A DNA stretch of 64,000 nt, taken from Thermococcus piezophilus (GTDB taxonomy: Archaea > Methanobacteriota_B > Thermococci > Thermococcales > Thermococcaceae). The position numbers were made by a program, and so were the translations under genes. Positions 1 to 39,041 of this stretch are shown here, piece after piece. The stretch lies in the NCBI RefSeq assembly GCF_001647085.1, contig NZ_CP015520.1:558001-622000 (forward strand), written 5' to 3'. Position 1 is the stretch's first letter. The number at the start of each line of letters is the position of its first letter. The notes beneath the pieces are model-generated. The model did no database searches, had not been told where the DNA came from, and was given only the letters and a program-made list of their open reading frames with translations.

Positions 1-678
1 AAACCTGACTTCCCTGATGGCGAACGGGTTGAAGTAAACCTGGTCACCAACGGTGACAATCGGAGCATCCTTGTCTGGGTCATGGTAAGTGTTGAAGGTC
101 AGCTCATTGTAGGAGCTGGCACTCCTGTAGAGATTGAGGTTAGACAGAACGTCAGAATCAAAGTAGTAATACCAGCCTTTAGTAAACCTGAAGAGACCAA
201 AGTCATATATGCCCTGGGAGATAGTGAGAATGGCACCGGTCACGTCCTGGGTGCCATAAAACTCTATTACGTTGGAGTTTCCATCCCTCTGGAGGGAGTC
301 TGTATAAACGGTTCTTGAACCGTTGAACTTCTCAAGCTTGAGGTGGGGGCTATCTAGGGGGTACGTAGCAAGAAGGTACGGACCGTTACTTATGACGAGA
401 TGCCCGCGTTCATTGTAGAATTGCAAATCCGCGTTTATCCTGGCGACCACAGCTGTCCAGTTAATGCCCGGGAAAGTTTCCACAACGTTACCTACAGAGA
501 TAGCATCCATAATTGCAGCCAGATCAGAAGTATGGGTGCCGTTGAGAAGGTCGAGCCAGAGGACTCCCTCTGCACCGCTGCTGAAGGAGTAGGTTCTGTT
601 GATGCCGTACTCCTTGCTCTTAGCGACGAGCTCGCCCATGGCCCAATAGAGCTCCCACGGCATCTGGGAGTAGAAAGG
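1..678 (-). pseudogene. Oligopeptide-binding protein (SBP family 5), internal fragment fused to glgA
   Basis: The minus strand reads open for about 226 codons and is homologous to the binding protein at 36579-39041. The fragment begins at PFYSQMPWELYWAMGELVA, continues through SSGAEGVLWLDLL and a linker of about 50 residues, then HLVISNGPYLL and on to FNPFAIREVR at the window edge. Bases 1-154 match 38469-38622 with 6 mismatches. Its order (N-lobe end, linker, GPY segment) is the ordinary SBP family 5 order, whereas the intact paralogue has these pieces at opposite ends. The 5' part of the gene is lost because the reading frame begins abruptly inside truncated glycogen synthase sequence near 676-684. 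The 3' part continues beyond the window. It has no promoter or start of its own, so I infer a non-functional remnant. Confidence 0.8.
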
Positions 679-31895: not shown

Positions 31896-32903
31896 TCAGT
31901 ACTTACCGACCAGGTGGCACTCCGCAAAGTGGTTGTGCTCATACTCGACGAGCTGCGGGTGCTTGGTATCACAGAGTCCCTTCTGGGCGTAGATACACCT
32001 CGGGTGGAACCTGCATCCCGGTGGAACCTCGGCGGCGTTTGGAACTTCACCCTTGATGGGCAGCTCCTTGATGACGTTCCTCCTCTCTGGCTTCGGCTCT
32101 GGAACGGCAGCGAGAAGTGCCCTCGTGTAAGGGTGAAGTGGGTTGTCTATGACTTTCTCTGCAGGACCCATCTCGACTATCCTTCCAAGGTACATGACCG
32201 CAATGTAGTCGGCGAAGTATCTGGCCGTTGAGAGGTCGTGGGTAATGTAAAGGTAGGTGACGCCCATCTTCTGCTTGAGCTCCTTCATCAGCTCGAGGAT
32301 CTCAGCCCTAATGGAAACGTCGAGCATCGAGACCGGCTCATCGGCAACTATGAACGTCGGGTTCAATATGAGAGCCCTAGCGATAGCGACACGCTGTCTC
32401 TGACCGCCGGAGAGCATGTGCGGGAACCTTCCGATGTAGTCCTCGGGCGGGGTTATCTTGACCATCTCAAGGGCCTTGTAGATGAGCTCCTCACGCTCGG
32501 CCTTGGTTTCGCCGATGCCGTGTATGAGGAGCGGCTCCTCGAGGATGTCAAATATCCTAAAGCGCGGGTTCATGGAGGAGAATGGATCCTGGAAGATTAT
32601 CTGAACACGCCTTCTGTACTCAAGGATCTCCTCCTTGGTTTTGACGTCGGTAACGTCCTTACCCTCGAGATATATTCTACCATCCGTAGGCTCGAGGAGC
32701 TTGACTATGAGTTTACCAGTGGTGGACTTACCACAACCGCTCTCACCGACTAGGGCAAAGACCTCCTGCTTCCCAATCTCGAAGCTTATGCCATCAACGG
32801 CCCTAACGTACTTCTGGGGTTCACCCTTGAGGGCGCTGACCAGTCCCCTCTTGATCGGGAAGTACTTCTTAAGTTTTTCAACTTTTAGTACCGGCTCCGC
32901 CAT
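31896..32903 (-). CDS. oppF: Oligopeptide ABC transporter ATPase, OppF type
   Basis: This 335-residue cytoplasmic ABC ATPase has Walker A GESGCGKSTTGK, Q-loop QIIFQDPFSSMNPRFR, signature [17 protein letters not shown], Walker B FIVADEPVSMLDVS and switch His YITHDLSTA. The C-terminal oligopeptide-transporter extension HPYTRALLAA is followed by PPGCRFHPRCIYAQKGLCDTKH and HFAECHLV. Those Cys residues resemble the Fe-S site reported in Dpp/Opp ATPases. It pairs with the OppD-type subunit 10 bp upstream to drive peptide or oligosaccharide import through OppB and OppC. It is the last gene of the transporter operon. Confidence 0.9.
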   Translation of the reverse strand: MAEPVLKVEKLKKYFPIKRGLVSALKGEPQKYVRAVDGISFEIGKQEVFALVGESGCGKSTTGKLIVKLLEPTDGRIYLEGKDVTDVKTKEEILEYRRRVQIIFQDPFSSMNPRFRIFDILEEPLLIHGIGETKAEREELIYKALEMVKITPPEDYIGRFPHMLSGGQRQRVAIARALILNPTFIVADEPVSMLDVSIRAEILELMKELKQKMGVTYLYITHDLSTARYFADYIAVMYLGRIVEMGPAEKVIDNPLHPYTRALLAAVPEPKPERRNVIKELPIKGEVPNAAEVPPGCRFHPRCIYAQKGLCDTKHPQLVEYEHNHFAECHLVGKY

Positions 32904-32913
32904 CTCTCACACC

Positions 32914-33873
32914 TCACAACAGCCAGCATGCGGCGTAGTGATCCCTATCAATTTCCTTCAGCTCGGGCTCCTGCTCCTTACAAACCTGCATCGCGTACGG
33001 GCACCTCGGGTGGAAGCGGCATCCCTTGGGCGGGGTGATCAGGTTGGGCGGCTGTCCAGGGATGAACTCGAGCTTCTCAATGTCTTCGTGGAGCCTCGGT
33101 ATTGCCGCAAGGAGCTTCTGGGTGTACGGGTGGGCCGGCTCGTAGTAGATCTTCTCGCTGTCGCCTATCTCAATGATCTTACCGGCGTACATTATCGCAA
33201 CGCGGTCGCTAATCTCAGCGAGGATGCTGAGGTCGTGGGTGATGAATATCATCGAAAGGCCGAGCTCCTTCTTGAGCTTCTTCATGAGGTTGATAATCTG
33301 GGCCTGAACAACGACGTCCAGAGCGGTTGTCGGCTCATCGGCGATAACCACATCAGGCTCGAGGAGCAGGGCAGTTGCGATGATGACACGCTGCTTCATA
33401 CCACCTGAAAGCTCATGCGGATAACGGTAGACGATGTCGGGCGGAAGACCAACGAGTTCGAGGTACTTCTGCGCCCTGTCGAGGGCGTCCTCCTTGTCCA
33501 TGTCCTTGTGGAGCAAGAGGGGTTCTATCATCTGATAGCCAACGGTGTAAACTGGGTTAAGGGCGTTCATTGCACCTTGGAATATCATGGATATCCTCTG
33601 CCAGCGTATCTCCTTCCTCAGAACGTCCTCTGGGAGACCAACGATCTCCCTACCATCGATTTTAACGCTACCACCAACGATCTTTCCTGGCGGGGTAGGC
33701 ATTCCCATTAAAGTAAAACCAAGGGATGACTTGCCACAACCGCTCTCGCCGGCAAGTCCCAGCACTTCACCCTTCTTGAGGTTGAAGGTGATGTTGTCGA
33801 CGGCCTTGACGACACCTTTGCTGGTGAAGTAATACATCTTGAGATCTTTAACTTCAAGCACATTCTTAGCCAT
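32914..33873 (-). CDS. oppD: Oligopeptide ABC transporter ATPase, OppD type
   Basis: This 319-residue ABC ATPase has Walker A GESGCGKSSLGFT, Q-loop SMIFQGAMNALNPVYT, signature ELSGGMKQRVIIATALL, Walker B VVIADEPTTALDVVV and switch FITHDLSILAEISDR. The C-terminal extension is HPYTQKLLAAIP, then PPKGCRFHPRCPYAMQVCKEQ and YAACWLL, again with the conserved Cys set. The GGGMKQ-type signature and ALDV are typical of the OppD partner. The gene lies between oppC and oppF with gaps of about 10 bp, a single transcription unit. Intact. Confidence 0.9.
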   Translation of the reverse strand: MAKNVLEVKDLKMYYFTSKGVVKAVDNITFNLKKGEVLGLAGESGCGKSSLGFTLMGMPTPPGKIVGGSVKIDGREIVGLPEDVLRKEIRWQRISMIFQGAMNALNPVYTVGYQMIEPLLLHKDMDKEDALDRAQKYLELVGLPPDIVYRYPHELSGGMKQRVIIATALLLEPDVVIADEPTTALDVVVQAQIINLMKKLKKELGLSMIFITHDLSILAEISDRVAIMYAGKIIEIGDSEKIYYEPAHPYTQKLLAAIPRLHEDIEKLEFIPGQPPNLITPPKGCRFHPRCPYAMQVCKEQEPELKEIDRDHYAACWLL

Positions 33874-33883
33874 TTATACCACC

Positions 33884-35344
33884 TCACAGCCTCCTGAGCC
33901 TCGGGTTGAGTATTTTATCGAGGGCCGTACCTATAAGCACGAAGGTTAGACCAACGACGGCAATTCCAAGTCCAGGCGGAATGACCCACCACCAGTATCC
34001 CTTGGTAGTTGCTGCCTGTGCCTGTGCAGCGTTGAGTATCTGACCCCAAGTAACGGCCGTCGGATCACCTATACCGAGGAAGCTCAGCGATGCCTCAGCG
34101 ATAACCGCACCGGGAACGCTGAGGGCTATGACGGAGAATGCGTACGGGAGCAGCTGCGGAAGGATGTGCTTGAAGATTATCCTGCCGTTGCCGGCGCCAA
34201 GGGCCTTCGCTGCCTCAATGTAGGTCTGCTCCTTGATCTGGAGTGCCATACTTCTAGCAATCCTCGCGATTCCCATCCATCCGAAGATGACCAACAGCAC
34301 CACTATGAACCACAGGGTAATGTGTCCGGCAGTAGCACCTATGAGGATAAGTATCGGCAGACTCGGAATTGAGGCGAATATTTCGTTGATACGCATCATG
34401 AACTCGTCGGCGTTTCCACCGAGGTAGGCACTGGTAACTCCGTAGATGAGACCGATGATCGTGCTTAGCACGGCGACAAGGATACCGATTGTGAGCGAGA
34501 CCCTGCTACCCCAGATGAGACCAGCCCAGATATCCCTGCCAAGGTAATCGGTACCCATGGTTCCATAGGTCCTTCCAAGGAAGGTGACCTTTATGTCATC
34601 GTATATGACCTTGTTCTCGTCCGGGGCAGGGTTGTCAATCTTGAGTATGAGCTTGTAGGTTCCAGGGAGTGGCTGCGGGTTCTCAATGATGTCGTCCACG
34701 TTCATTCCCGGCTCGACCTTGGCAAATAATGGGGCGACCATGTCGCTGATAAGGATGGTCTCAAGTGGAACCTCGAACATAGTTATTTCTCTACCCTCGG
34801 TTACATTGACAAGCCAGATGTATATGTTGGAGGATATAGTGCTGTCCCTACCTACAGCAACGGTCAGTGAAGAGCTGAGCTGCTTATTGATAAGGAGTGG
34901 AACGGTCTTACCATCTGGCCTCTCTAAATACACACTTATAGTCGGAACCTCATACGGGGAATTCAGCGTCACGTTAATATTCTTGACTATGATGCCCTGC
35001 GGTCCAAAGTAGTAGTTCTCGGGTAGGACGTAGTCAACCTCGATTATAGTGGTGTTCTTGTTAAGTTGGGTTATCTTCAATTCGTCCTTATAGTAAATCT
35101 CCTGCGGAACGAGCTTCTTGGAGGTAAACATGTTATACCAGGTCGGTGGAACGTTCTTCGGGTTGTCCTCCCAGTACTGGGAGTTCCTCCACTTTTCGGG
35201 GAGGTTTGGAATGGTAGTATACGGTGCGGTTAGTGCAACGAGCACAAGGATGATAAGGAGAATCACACCGGCTATACCGGTCTTCTCCTTCTTGAATTCA
35301 TCAAGGAACTCTTTAAACCCCTCTTTGATGTCAACCCATCTCAT
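33884..35344 (-). CDS. oppC: Oligopeptide ABC transporter permease, OppC type, with large external insertion
   Basis: This 486-residue permease has TM1 (TGIAGVILLIILVLVALTAPY), then about 230 residues of extracytoplasmic beta-rich sequence, then the usual five-helix core beginning GTDYLGRDIWAGLIWGSRVSLTIG. The EAA coupling loop QTYIEAAKALGAGNGRIIFKHILPQL contacts the ATPases. Bacterial OppC proteins are about 300 residues; the extra external domain between TM1 and TM2 may dock the unusually large binding protein. It lies 11 bp after oppB on the same strand. Intact. Confidence 0.88.
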   Translation of the reverse strand: MRWVDIKEGFKEFLDEFKKEKTGIAGVILLIILVLVALTAPYTTIPNLPEKWRNSQYWEDNPKNVPPTWYNMFTSKKLVPQEIYYKDELKITQLNKNTTIIEVDYVLPENYYFGPQGIIVKNINVTLNSPYEVPTISVYLERPDGKTVPLLINKQLSSSLTVAVGRDSTISSNIYIWLVNVTEGREITMFEVPLETILISDMVAPLFAKVEPGMNVDDIIENPQPLPGTYKLILKIDNPAPDENKVIYDDIKVTFLGRTYGTMGTDYLGRDIWAGLIWGSRVSLTIGILVAVLSTIIGLIYGVTSAYLGGNADEFMMRINEIFASIPSLPILILIGATAGHITLWFIVVLLVIFGWMGIARIARSMALQIKEQTYIEAAKALGAGNGRIIFKHILPQLLPYAFSVIALSVPGAVIAEASLSFLGIGDPTAVTWGQILNAAQAQAATTKGYWWWVIPPGLGIAVVGLTFVLIGTALDKILNPRLRRL

Positions 35345-35355
35345 CGTGAATCACC

Positions 35356-36411
35356 TCACATCCTGGCAGAGGCACCGACCTTGACACGCGGGTCGAGGAA
35401 TCCGTATATCATGTCCGCAAGGACGACGCTGGCAAGGTAGAGCACCGTGAAGAAGTACGTGAGTCCTATGAGAAGGTTGGTCTCGTTCTGCTGGAGGGCG
35501 ACCCAGTAGAGCCTGCCCATTCCTGGGTAGTTGAAGACAAGCTCACTGATGATTGCACCACCGAGCGAACCAAGGAGGGCGAAGATGATCATGGTGACTA
35601 TCGGCGGAGCGGCAGCGCGGAGTGCGTGGCCGTAGATTATCTTGTGTTCGGGGATACCCTTTGCCCTGGCCGCCATGATGAAGTCCTCCTGGAGGGTACC
35701 TATCATGATGTTCCTCGTAGTCCAAGCCCAGCCACCGAAGACAACGAAGACGTAGGTGAAGACCGGAAGGACGAGCCTCCAGATGACATCCTTAATGTGG
35801 GCCCAGCCGGTGAGCTGTGGGTCAAACATCGAGCTCAAGGGGAACCAGCCGAGCTTGTAGGCGAAGATGAGCAGGAACATCATTCCCGTCCACCACATCG
35901 GCAGACTGTAAGTGACCAGCGCAAAGATGGACAACGCCCTGTCAAATACGCTTCCGGCGTGTCTGGCGGCCCTAACACCAAGGAAAATACCCAGGATAAT
36001 AACGATTATCGTAGCAGTCGTGAAGAGGAGTATGCTCCTCGGAACCGCGACTTTAATGATGTCCGAAACGTTGTTGGTACCGAAGATAGGCATGCTCGTC
36101 GTTCCAAAATCAAGCTTTAACGTACGCACCGCCTTATTGTAAACCTTCTGCCAGTAGGGGACGTTCAGCTCATACTTCTCCTCGAGGGATGCCTGTTTGG
36201 CAGCCTTGGCCTGTTCAAAAGCTTCAAGTCCCTGACTCTGCTTGATTTTGGCACCCTCGGATCTTTCCCATAGCATCAGCTCCTCATACATCTTTGATTT
36301 ATTGCTCTCCTCCGCGACTTTAACGAAGAGTGCCGAAATAATAAAAGTCACTATCAACAGAACAATAATGGCGTTCACGATTCTAAACGCAAGGTACTTG
36401 AGATACCCCAT
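35356..36411 (-). CDS. oppB: Oligopeptide ABC transporter permease, OppB type
   Basis: This 351-residue permease has an N-terminal helix (FRIVNAIIVLLIVTFIISALFV), an external stretch rich in charged helices, and the core with TTSMPIFGTNNVSDIIKVAVPRS and WWTGMMFLLIFAYKLGWFPL. The EAA loop is EDFIMAARAKGIPEHKIIYGHALR. It forms the channel with OppC. It is the first gene of oppBCDF and has its own promoter 60 bp upstream, with GGGGGTG before the ATG. The binding protein gene lies 167 bp further upstream and is probably expressed at a higher level from a separate promoter. Confidence 0.9.
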   Translation of the reverse strand: MGYLKYLAFRIVNAIIVLLIVTFIISALFVKVAEESNKSKMYEELMLWERSEGAKIKQSQGLEAFEQAKAAKQASLEEKYELNVPYWQKVYNKAVRTLKLDFGTTSMPIFGTNNVSDIIKVAVPRSILLFTTATIIVIILGIFLGVRAARHAGSVFDRALSIFALVTYSLPMWWTGMMFLLIFAYKLGWFPLSSMFDPQLTGWAHIKDVIWRLVLPVFTYVFVVFGGWAWTTRNIMIGTLQEDFIMAARAKGIPEHKIIYGHALRAAAPPIVTMIIFALLGSLGGAIISELVFNYPGMGRLYWVALQQNETNLLIGLTYFFTVLYLASVVLADMIYGFLDPRVKVGASARM

Positions 36412-36578: not shown

Positions 36579-39041
36579 TCACTTCTTCTTGGTGAAGTAC
36601 CAGGCCGCGCCGGCGATGATGATTATCACAAGGCCGATGACGACGTAGGTGGTGGTGCTGGTTCCGCTCGGAGTAGTTGTGGTGGTCTCGGCTGGAGTTG
36701 TTGTGGTCTCGCTTGGAGTGGTCGTCGTTGGCTGGGTGGTCGTGGTCTTGGTGAGGTCCTTAAGGCTTATACCGGACATCTTCTGGATGACGATGGCGAG
36801 GTCATCGACGTGGTCCTTGGTGAGGAGGTCGAGCCAGAGGACTCCCTCTGCACCGCTGCTGAAGGAGTAAGTCTTGTCGATGCCATACTTCTTGCTATTA
36901 GCGACGAGCTCACCCATGGCCCAGTACATCTCCCATGGCATCTGCGGGTAGAAGATGTAGAATTCTGCAGTCATGTCGTCGGCGAGCGGGTGCTCGTAAG
37001 TACCGTAGACGACGTAACCATCATCAGTCCACTGCCAGCCGAGGATGTTGCTGAGAGCACTGGCAGTTCCACCAAGACTCTCGTCGTAGTATGGGTCGTC
37101 AGCACCATCCTTGTAAGCCCAAGTGTAGAGGAAGGCCACATAGTACTTAATGTCGTCAACACTGCCCTTCACGCCATTATGCCAGGTGCCAATGTCACAC
37201 TTGACGGTAGCCTTAACGGAGGCGTCCTCGCCGGCGTGAGCGGCAATCCATCCCTGGGTTTGGTTGTAGATAACCGCATCATCTGGAACCTTGAAGTCTC
37301 CCCTCTCAATGGTCCAAGTACACCTGTACGGAGTGAAGATACCGTCGAAGTTGTTGGTTCCACCGTAGTCCCTTATGAGATTCCAGACCCTGGTGGAGTA
37401 AACGTCACTGAGACCTCCAACCGGGTTAAAGGCGCTCATGAACATGGCACCGGTTGAAGCGAGCTGGGCAATCTTGAGGTGCTTGTCTGGGGTCTCGGCA
37501 CTCATGACGCTCCAGCGGCTGCTTATACCAGTGCTGGCCTCGGCGTTGATCTTGGTGACCCTCTGCTTGTTGGCCGGGTAGAAATTCCAAGTCTCAATGA
37601 GGAAGACCCTCTCGCTCTCCATGATACCTATGAGCATGCTTATCTTCTGGAGGTCCCAGTACTGGCCAGCAGTGGTTATCTTAATCGGCTCCTTGGGGAT
37701 GAGGTCAGCGTTGATGTGCGGAGTGCCCTCAGCACCTGCAGTGGTGAAGTATGTCAGCAGGTAAGTGAGCTCCTCCTCAGTCCAGTTGAGGATCGGACCG
37801 AGGCTGTCAGTGGTCTTGTAGTACTCGGTACCAAGCTTCTGGAGGCCAGCGTTGGCGTCACCGTTGCCGATGTACTTGAGGGCCTCTTCAACAGTCACAG
37901 TGTTCTGGTGCTTCGGCTCAACTGCACCTGGGACGTATCCATACCAGGCAGAATAGAACCAGGCAGTGTAGTCATCAATCCAGACGCTCGGAAGTCCACT
38001 GGCACCCCAACCGCCGGTATAGATGTTCCACTCGTAGTTGCTCGGCGGCTTGGCGAAGACGACCTGACCGGCCTTCTGCCTGTCCCAGAGGAGCCTGTCA
38101 ACGGTAAATCCGACCTTCTTCTCGAGGAGGTCGGCAACGTAGAGACCAATCTCCTTCCTATTGTCCTCGATGCGGATGATGAACTTGATGGTAACCGGCT
38201 GACCGTCGAAGTACCACTTACCGTCGCCACCCTTCTCAAGAGTGTGATTGTACTGGGCAACCTGCTGGGCGGCCTCGTTCAGAGCGTCGTTTATTATCTT
38301 GAGGGCGAAGTCCTCGTTGCCGCTAGTGCTCATTCCAAGGGCCTCGTAAACGGGCACGAAGTACTTGTTGGCCGGGTGGCTCGGCCTGATACAGCCGAAC
38401 ATCGGAGCACCGCTTCCTTGGTAGATGTTCTGGACGATGTAGTCCCTGTTGATGAGCCAGTTCATGGCAAACCTGACTTCCCTGATGGCGAACGGGTTGA
38501 AGTAAACCTGGTCACCAACGGTGACAATCGGAGCATCCTTGTCCGGGTCATGATAAGTGTTGAAGGTCAACTCGTTGTAGGAACTGGCACTCTTGTAGAG
38601 ATTGAGGTTAGACAGAACGTCAGCACCAAGACCCTGGTACTTACCAGCCGGGAAGGCGAACAGACCGAGGTCGTACTCGCCCTTGGCGATCTGGAGGATG
38701 ACGTTCTCAGGGTTCTGGACACCCTGGTACTCAATAACATCAGCGTAACCGTCCTTCAGGAGGTTCGGGTCGTTGGTGAATATATTCCTGTCCCCAGTGT
38801 ACTTCTCCAGCTTGAGGTAGAGGTTCTCCGGAGAGTACATGGCGAGAATGTACGGACCGTTGCTGATAACGAAGTGGCCGTGCTGGAGGTACCACTGGAG
38901 GTCAGCAGTGAACCTAGCCTTGGCCTCGTCGCTGTTAAGCGGTATGTCCTTGGGGGTGTAATCTACTGCACCCACTGGGTTCACAAAAAACAAACTAAAC
39001 AGCATCAAACCCATAACAAACAATCCCAAAGCTTTTTTCAT
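36579..39041 (-). CDS. Oligopeptide-binding protein (SBP family 5), apparently circularly permuted
   Basis: This 820-residue surface receptor feeds OppBCDF. A signal peptide (ALGLFVMGLMLFSLFFVNPVGA) is followed directly by HFVISNGPYILAMYSPENLYLKL and AIREVRFAMNWLINRDYIVQNIYQGSGAP, which in DppA/OppA-type proteins lie in the middle and second half. The family's usual N-terminal half comes afterwards: FMSAFNPVGGLSDVYSTRVWNLI, KCDIGTWHNGVKGSVDDIKYY, DDGYVVYGTYEHPLADD and MPWEMYWAMGELV. The end is a Thr-rich stalk (TTTTTPSGTSTTT), one membrane helix and KKK, so it is C-terminally anchored. The fragment at 1-678 shows the ordinary order. The frame is intact, with GGAGG before the ATG. The permutation is my inference from motif order. 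Confidence 0.88.
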   Translation of the reverse strand: MKKALGLFVMGLMLFSLFFVNPVGAVDYTPKDIPLNSDEAKARFTADLQWYLQHGHFVISNGPYILAMYSPENLYLKLEKYTGDRNIFTNDPNLLKDGYADVIEYQGVQNPENVILQIAKGEYDLGLFAFPAGKYQGLGADVLSNLNLYKSASSYNELTFNTYHDPDKDAPIVTVGDQVYFNPFAIREVRFAMNWLINRDYIVQNIYQGSGAPMFGCIRPSHPANKYFVPVYEALGMSTSGNEDFALKIINDALNEAAQQVAQYNHTLEKGGDGKWYFDGQPVTIKFIIRIEDNRKEIGLYVADLLEKKVGFTVDRLLWDRQKAGQVVFAKPPSNYEWNIYTGGWGASGLPSVWIDDYTAWFYSAWYGYVPGAVEPKHQNTVTVEEALKYIGNGDANAGLQKLGTEYYKTTDSLGPILNWTEEELTYLLTYFTTAGAEGTPHINADLIPKEPIKITTAGQYWDLQKISMLIGIMESERVFLIETWNFYPANKQRVTKINAEASTGISSRWSVMSAETPDKHLKIAQLASTGAMFMSAFNPVGGLSDVYSTRVWNLIRDYGGTNNFDGIFTPYRCTWTIERGDFKVPDDAVIYNQTQGWIAAHAGEDASVKATVKCDIGTWHNGVKGSVDDIKYYVAFLYTWAYKDGADDPYYDESLGGTASALSNILGWQWTDDGYVVYGTYEHPLADDMTAEFYIFYPQMPWEMYWAMGELVANSKKYGIDKTYSFSSGAEGVLWLDLLTKDHVDDLAIVIQKMSGISLKDLTKTTTTQPTTTTPSETTTTPAETTTTTPSGTSTTTYVVIGLVIIIIAGAAWYFTKKK

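Follow-up and report, generated by a model that had tools for sequence, protein, structure and literature searches.

An OppA-like gene with a rearranged core

The window, a stretch of 64,000 nucleotides of the Thermococcus piezophilus genome, carries on its minus strand an oppA-like gene followed by the other genes of an Opp-type operon, and a remnant of a paralogous gene at its edge. Below, the letters a to d denote the four blocks of the binding-protein core, and types I to IV denote their cyclic orders (I, canonical, dabc; II, abcd; III, bcda; IV, cdab). The evidence for each feature is given in brackets.

36579..39041, minus strand: oppA-like gene, circularly permuted SBP family 5, order a-b-c-d (type II), 820 aa (ORF, 7fi3 alignment, block HMM)
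38964..39041, minus strand: signal peptide, residues 1-26 (sequence; N-termini of L047, L098 and L104)
38748..38927, minus strand: block a, residues 39-98, NGPYILAMY region (7fi3 alignment, block HMM)
37866..38747, minus strand: block b, residues 99-392, containing VRFAMNWLINRDYIVQNIYQG (7fi3 alignment, block HMM, Pfam PF00496 at 58-351)
37494..37865, minus strand: block c, residues 393-516, C-terminal part in canonical OppA (7fi3 alignment, block HMM)
37473..37517, minus strand: c-d seam, residues 509-523, RWSVMSAETPDKHLK, joining the former C-terminus to the former N-terminus (anchor distances)
36771..37493, minus strand: block d, residues 517-757, N-terminal in canonical OppA, here at the C-end (7fi3 alignment, block HMM)
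36657..36758, minus strand: Thr-rich stalk, residues 762-795 (sequence)
36582..36656, minus strand: C-terminal membrane helix and KKK, residues 796-820 (sequence)
35356..36411, minus strand: OppB-like permease, following the oppA-like gene in the operon and conserved downstream of all four types (ORF)
33884..35344, minus strand: OppC-like permease (ORF, locus comparison)
32914..33873, minus strand: OppD-like ATPase (ORF, locus comparison)
31896..32903, minus strand: OppF-like ATPase (ORF, locus comparison)
1..678, minus strand: permuted SBP paralogue, remnant with pieces q696-756 and q36-199 (sequence comparison)

Along the 820-residue protein, the open reading frame and its translation place the motifs NGPYILAMY (~61), VRFAMNWLINRDYIVQNIYQG (189-209), FNPVGGLSDVYSTRVWNLI (~538), WHNGVKGSVDDIKYY (~620) and DDGYVVYG (~673) in the very order reported by an earlier sequence-only reading of this DNA. 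Block a, located mid-protein in canonical OppA, forms the new N-terminus of the core. Both a signal peptide, resembling that of type I and type IV homologues of the same locus, and a membrane tether can be read from the sequence; the C-terminal stalk and helix that the same reading took for a tether are indeed there, a Thr-rich stalk and then a helix occupying residues 762-820. Based on homology and the operon, we infer that the protein is the binding protein of an Opp/Dpp-type (OppABCDF) importer and serves in transport. Archaeal members of SBP family 5 can bind sugars as well as peptides.

The sole strong PDB match of the protein found with phmmer is 7fi3 (E 2.3e-143), an archaeal OppA described as an ABC-type dipeptide/oligopeptide protein, which is homologous to the window core over its whole length. 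Positions q39-518 correspond to 261-724 of the 7fi3 chain (i-E 2e-104) and q519-746 to 4-233 (i-E 3e-38); the two stretches of 7fi3 do not overlap, appear in swapped order and cover the core once. Upon in silico rotation (d, then a-b-c), they merge into one collinear match (3-720 to 4-721, E 1.8e-144). Thus 7fi3 has the order dabc, whereas the window protein has abcd and its tether follows a different block. The printed 7fi3 sequence matches L098, which occupies the same operon position upstream of OppB. The proposal that this is a natural circular permutation of SBP family 5 is therefore supported: linear correspondence with the canonical protein fails at the sequence level, and the alternative of an unrelated second half is excluded.

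The Pfam model PF00496 (SBP_bac_5; OppA/DppA) scores 57.4 bits in the window protein (cut-off 32.4). Only its positions 115-352 are matched collinearly, compared with 28-351 in canonical L098, and the N-terminal part of the domain sits at the C-end of the window protein; in type III proteins the matched part of the profile begins at 146-148. Homology to SBP family 5 extends over the whole core, but the canonical N-to-C order of the fold is absent: all core parts are present once, their cyclic order is altered and the old termini are joined at 509-523. At the sequence level, the protein is a single SBP family 5 core whose ends are new, with no duplicated or foreign domain, and we class it among circular permutants of the family rather than as an ordinary member. 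AlphaFold gave a pLDDT of 47 for the window protein and 45 for a type III protein, values too low to rely on, with alignments of only 9-11 sequences; homology to 7fi3 suggests that the permuted fold closes.

It might be asked whether the permuted order is an artefact of assembly or gene calling, for which we found no support. The type II order is kept in ~26 genomes, several of them closed, and the permuted proteins are single open frames in many independent genomes, again including closed ones. The seam is conserved, and dN/dS values of 0.13-0.34 for both core and seam point to purifying selection. Chance does not account for the order, and we regard an artefact as practically excluded.

Four cyclic orders at a shared locus

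Relatives were searched for in 94 genomes of Thermococcales, 88 of which yielded matches. Open reading frames were placed on a tripled core and by HMMs of the four blocks (a, q40-98; b, q101-388; c, q398-512; d, q520-745). According to the block HMMs, the canonical order dabc (I) is found in 28 frames, abcd (II) in 25, bcda (III) in 31 and cdab (IV) in 11, in addition to one fused double, bcdabcda (L032), and fragments; these counts refer to distinct frames in the loci fetched and do not represent a census. On the tripled core nearly every complete protein spans ~1.0 turn. Type II spans above 1.05 turns (start at q703) turned out to be chance alignments of signal peptides, and the longer type IV spans were due to the alignment running into the Thr-rich stalk. 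A further family of the class has type III as well (L125). A scan of genome contigs returned only five loci, all in Thermococcus MAGs. Permutation is therefore common in Thermococcales, and the order in the window is just one of four. The earlier suggestion that this order may be general in Thermococcales does not hold, since canonical type I and the rotations III and IV fill the same locus elsewhere.

In species representing each of the four orders the gene is flanked upstream by pyrC, pyrK and a radical SAM gene, and downstream by OppB-OppC-OppD-OppF, usually followed by nadE. Examples are L135, L136, L138 and L140 for type I, the window, L142 and L143 for type II, L139 and L144 for type III, and L128 and L141 for type IV. 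The closest case is genome G026: identity to the window is 73-89% for the flanking genes and 95-96% for OppD/F, yet the type IV core is rotated by about half relative to the window protein. Its signal peptide, MKKALGLFVMGLMLFSLFFVNPVSA, nearly equals that of the window protein, and both proteins have the Thr-rich stalk and the end helix; in type IV L047 the signal peptide is almost that of the window protein and the stalk is of the same sort. In other words, it is the core that rotates, with signal peptide and stalk remaining at the ends of the gene.

Not all genes of the locus are equally conserved. OppA, B and C of type I or III loci are 35-63% identical to those of the window, whereas OppD/F (82-96%) and most flanking genes (mostly 54-94%) are conserved at the same locus. 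More generally, across L135-L144, L127 and L128, divergence between species is much greater in OppA/B/C than in OppD, OppF and most flanks. It looks as if OppA-B-C were either a module being exchanged or fast evolving.

Other architectures were also observed. In type IV cores outside the operon (L043-L046, L090), an S-layer-like C-terminal domain replaces the Thr-rich stalk, and the distant type IV proteins L066/L067 end right at the opening, without a stalk. L034 (3315-7097, plus strand) combines a type III SBP core with a Ser/Thr protein kinase domain in one protein, and L042 (2973-7307, plus strand) a type I SBP core with PEGA domains and a Ser/Thr protein kinase domain; both are receptor-kinase-like proteins in Thermococcales. 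L032 (3412-9633, plus strand; 2074 aa) has two complete type III cores in tandem and Ig/PKD-like domains. This III-III double has an Ig-like linker, and a truncated double is seen in L033.

Seams, openings and a possible origin

We measured anchor-to-anchor distances across each of the four junctions. The c/d junction, which corresponds to both ends of the canonical protein, is closed in all type II, III and IV proteins; the resulting seam is 48 residues long in nearly all of them (range 44-48) and has a common motif, RW..M.AETPDK.LK. The other junctions are near type I length, except for each type's own opening. Each permuted order is therefore defined by one shared seam and one private opening. 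Types III and IV keep a continuous, native-like d/a linker, which is cut in type II, and each order has its C-terminal tether on another block. The new termini may lie at another face of the fold, as the sequence-only reading proposed. In L047 we suspected a relic of duplication at the two ends of the type IV protein, but the other members lack it and the idea was dropped.

A c-d seam common to the three permuted orders points to their descent from one sealed ancestor. We consider it probable (about 0.78) that the window protein is a functional tethered OppA with a single permuted core, one of a series of four orders which arose via in-frame duplication and trimming. According to this scheme, an in-frame duplication of a canonical core would have shed the internal stalk and signal peptide, creating the c-d seam once; the doubled core would then have been trimmed at different loops in different lineages. 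In the window protein, residues 509-523 join the old C- and N-termini as the c-d seam, and the new opening lies in the linker that used to connect blocks d and a. The signal peptide, the Thr-rich stalk and the helix have stayed at the gene ends, leaving the tether to hang from a different loop. We infer both this route and the single origin of the seam. The sequence-only reading had proposed a tandem duplication followed by loss of the outer halves, which remains plausible in outline, but not simply as one duplication of this gene, since the c-d seam is common to all three permuted orders. A sealed, untrimmed double core with one signal peptide and one stalk was not found among the relatives.

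Sequential re-permutation, from I to III to II to IV or along another chain, each step with its own duplication and trimming, might also be envisaged. With the root on type I, type III forms a basal grade of the core tree with II and IV inside it, and IV is nested in II in the OppB tree. In addition, both halves of the a/b loop persist in the type III protein L034, so that resealing could be scarless. However, there is no second visible seam: apart from the c-d seam and the types' own openings, junctions are near-native in length and motif, and the continuous native-like d/a linker of IV and III is cut in II. We regard such a chain as possible, though rather doubtful.

Permutation by duplication is the standard model, and fission and fusion the classic alternative (PMC3320104). 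The latter would mean that the core was split into two genes which were later fused in the opposite order. It might seem to be favored by the type II gene occurring in two overlapping frames in three genomes (L059/L028, L060/L027 and L061). Nevertheless, the three split points differ (q223, q402 and q555) and mark no common fission, no separate half genes, each bearing a signal peptide, turned up, and three orders with one seam would demand repeated fission at different loops. As to the split genes being relics of fission, L061 (2540-5031, plus strand; q402), the one split gene examined at the DNA level, comes from a draft genome and seems to result from a frameshift of one base. Fission and fusion thus appear very improbable, and duplication with trimming is our preferred route.

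How many permutations, and what they mean

How often the order has changed is harder to establish. In the core tree, built from sequences unrolled to a common order, type I falls on one side (100), type III forms a grade, and types II and IV intermingle; the order must have changed at least 6 times on this tree. AU tests reject a single clade both for IV (p 0.0004) and for II (p 9e-59). Separate trees of b, d and a+c need 6-8 changes. In contrast, in the OppB tree of 66 operons the types fall into clades, with IV nested in II, and 3 changes suffice. Gene conversion or cassette exchange could explain this conflict, in which case the mixing of II, III and IV in the core trees need not reflect the history of the order.

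The window itself provides a direct sign of recombination. The paralogous remnant at its edge runs left of the window into a type-IV-like protein end with an S-layer-like C-terminal domain (L064, 4424-5688) and is joined to a truncated glycogen-synthase-like frame, forming a chimeric pseudogene. The remnant and the intact type II gene share ~90 bp at 100% identity, up to a deletion junction, and such near-identical tracts suggest gene conversion. Because the trees disagree and recombination has left its sign in the window, we put the number of permutations at at least three, possibly more.

There is roughly an even chance that permutations were few, as few as three, and spread by exchange of OppA-B-C cassettes together with gene conversion between paralogues; whether the intermixed core tree overstates their number is a matter of the same even odds. 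The low identity of OppA/B/C relative to OppD/F and flanks at the same locus, the OppB tree and the identical tract of ~90 bp in the window genome all speak for this reading. The AU tests and the block trees b, d and a+c speak against it, as the mixing goes beyond one converted tract. At the other extreme, it is tempting to speculate that peptide-receptor genes of Thermococcales have been rotated repeatedly by recombination between paralogous cores, making the order a recurrently changing property rather than the outcome of three old accidents. This seems unlikely to us; if true, the tether point, and perhaps the docking to OppBC, would change along with the cyclic order.

Natural circular permutants are mostly known as isolated pairs. 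Four cyclic orders at one orthologous locus are a notable result, and the series has apparently not been described before. The claim of novelty is provisional: no earlier report of natural permutation in this family was found in the literature searched, which covered only a minority of subscription journals. Saposin/swaposin and DNA methyltransferases likewise show a rotated order, with a tandem double expected as the intermediate of permutation by duplication (PMC3320104); here one fused double (L032) exists. Unlike in those cases, a single order of archaea has four rotations at the same syntenic locus, and the signal peptide and the anchor keep their places.

One orthologous locus thus offers all four rotations of a ~700-residue core, constant ends and a crystal structure for the canonical form. 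With such a series, one can ask directly at which points a large two-lobed protein tolerates cuts and by what path permutations originate and spread. One can also ask if delivery to the transporter depends on where a tethered receptor is attached. Models assuming one order, such as Pfam and collinear trees, misread these proteins.
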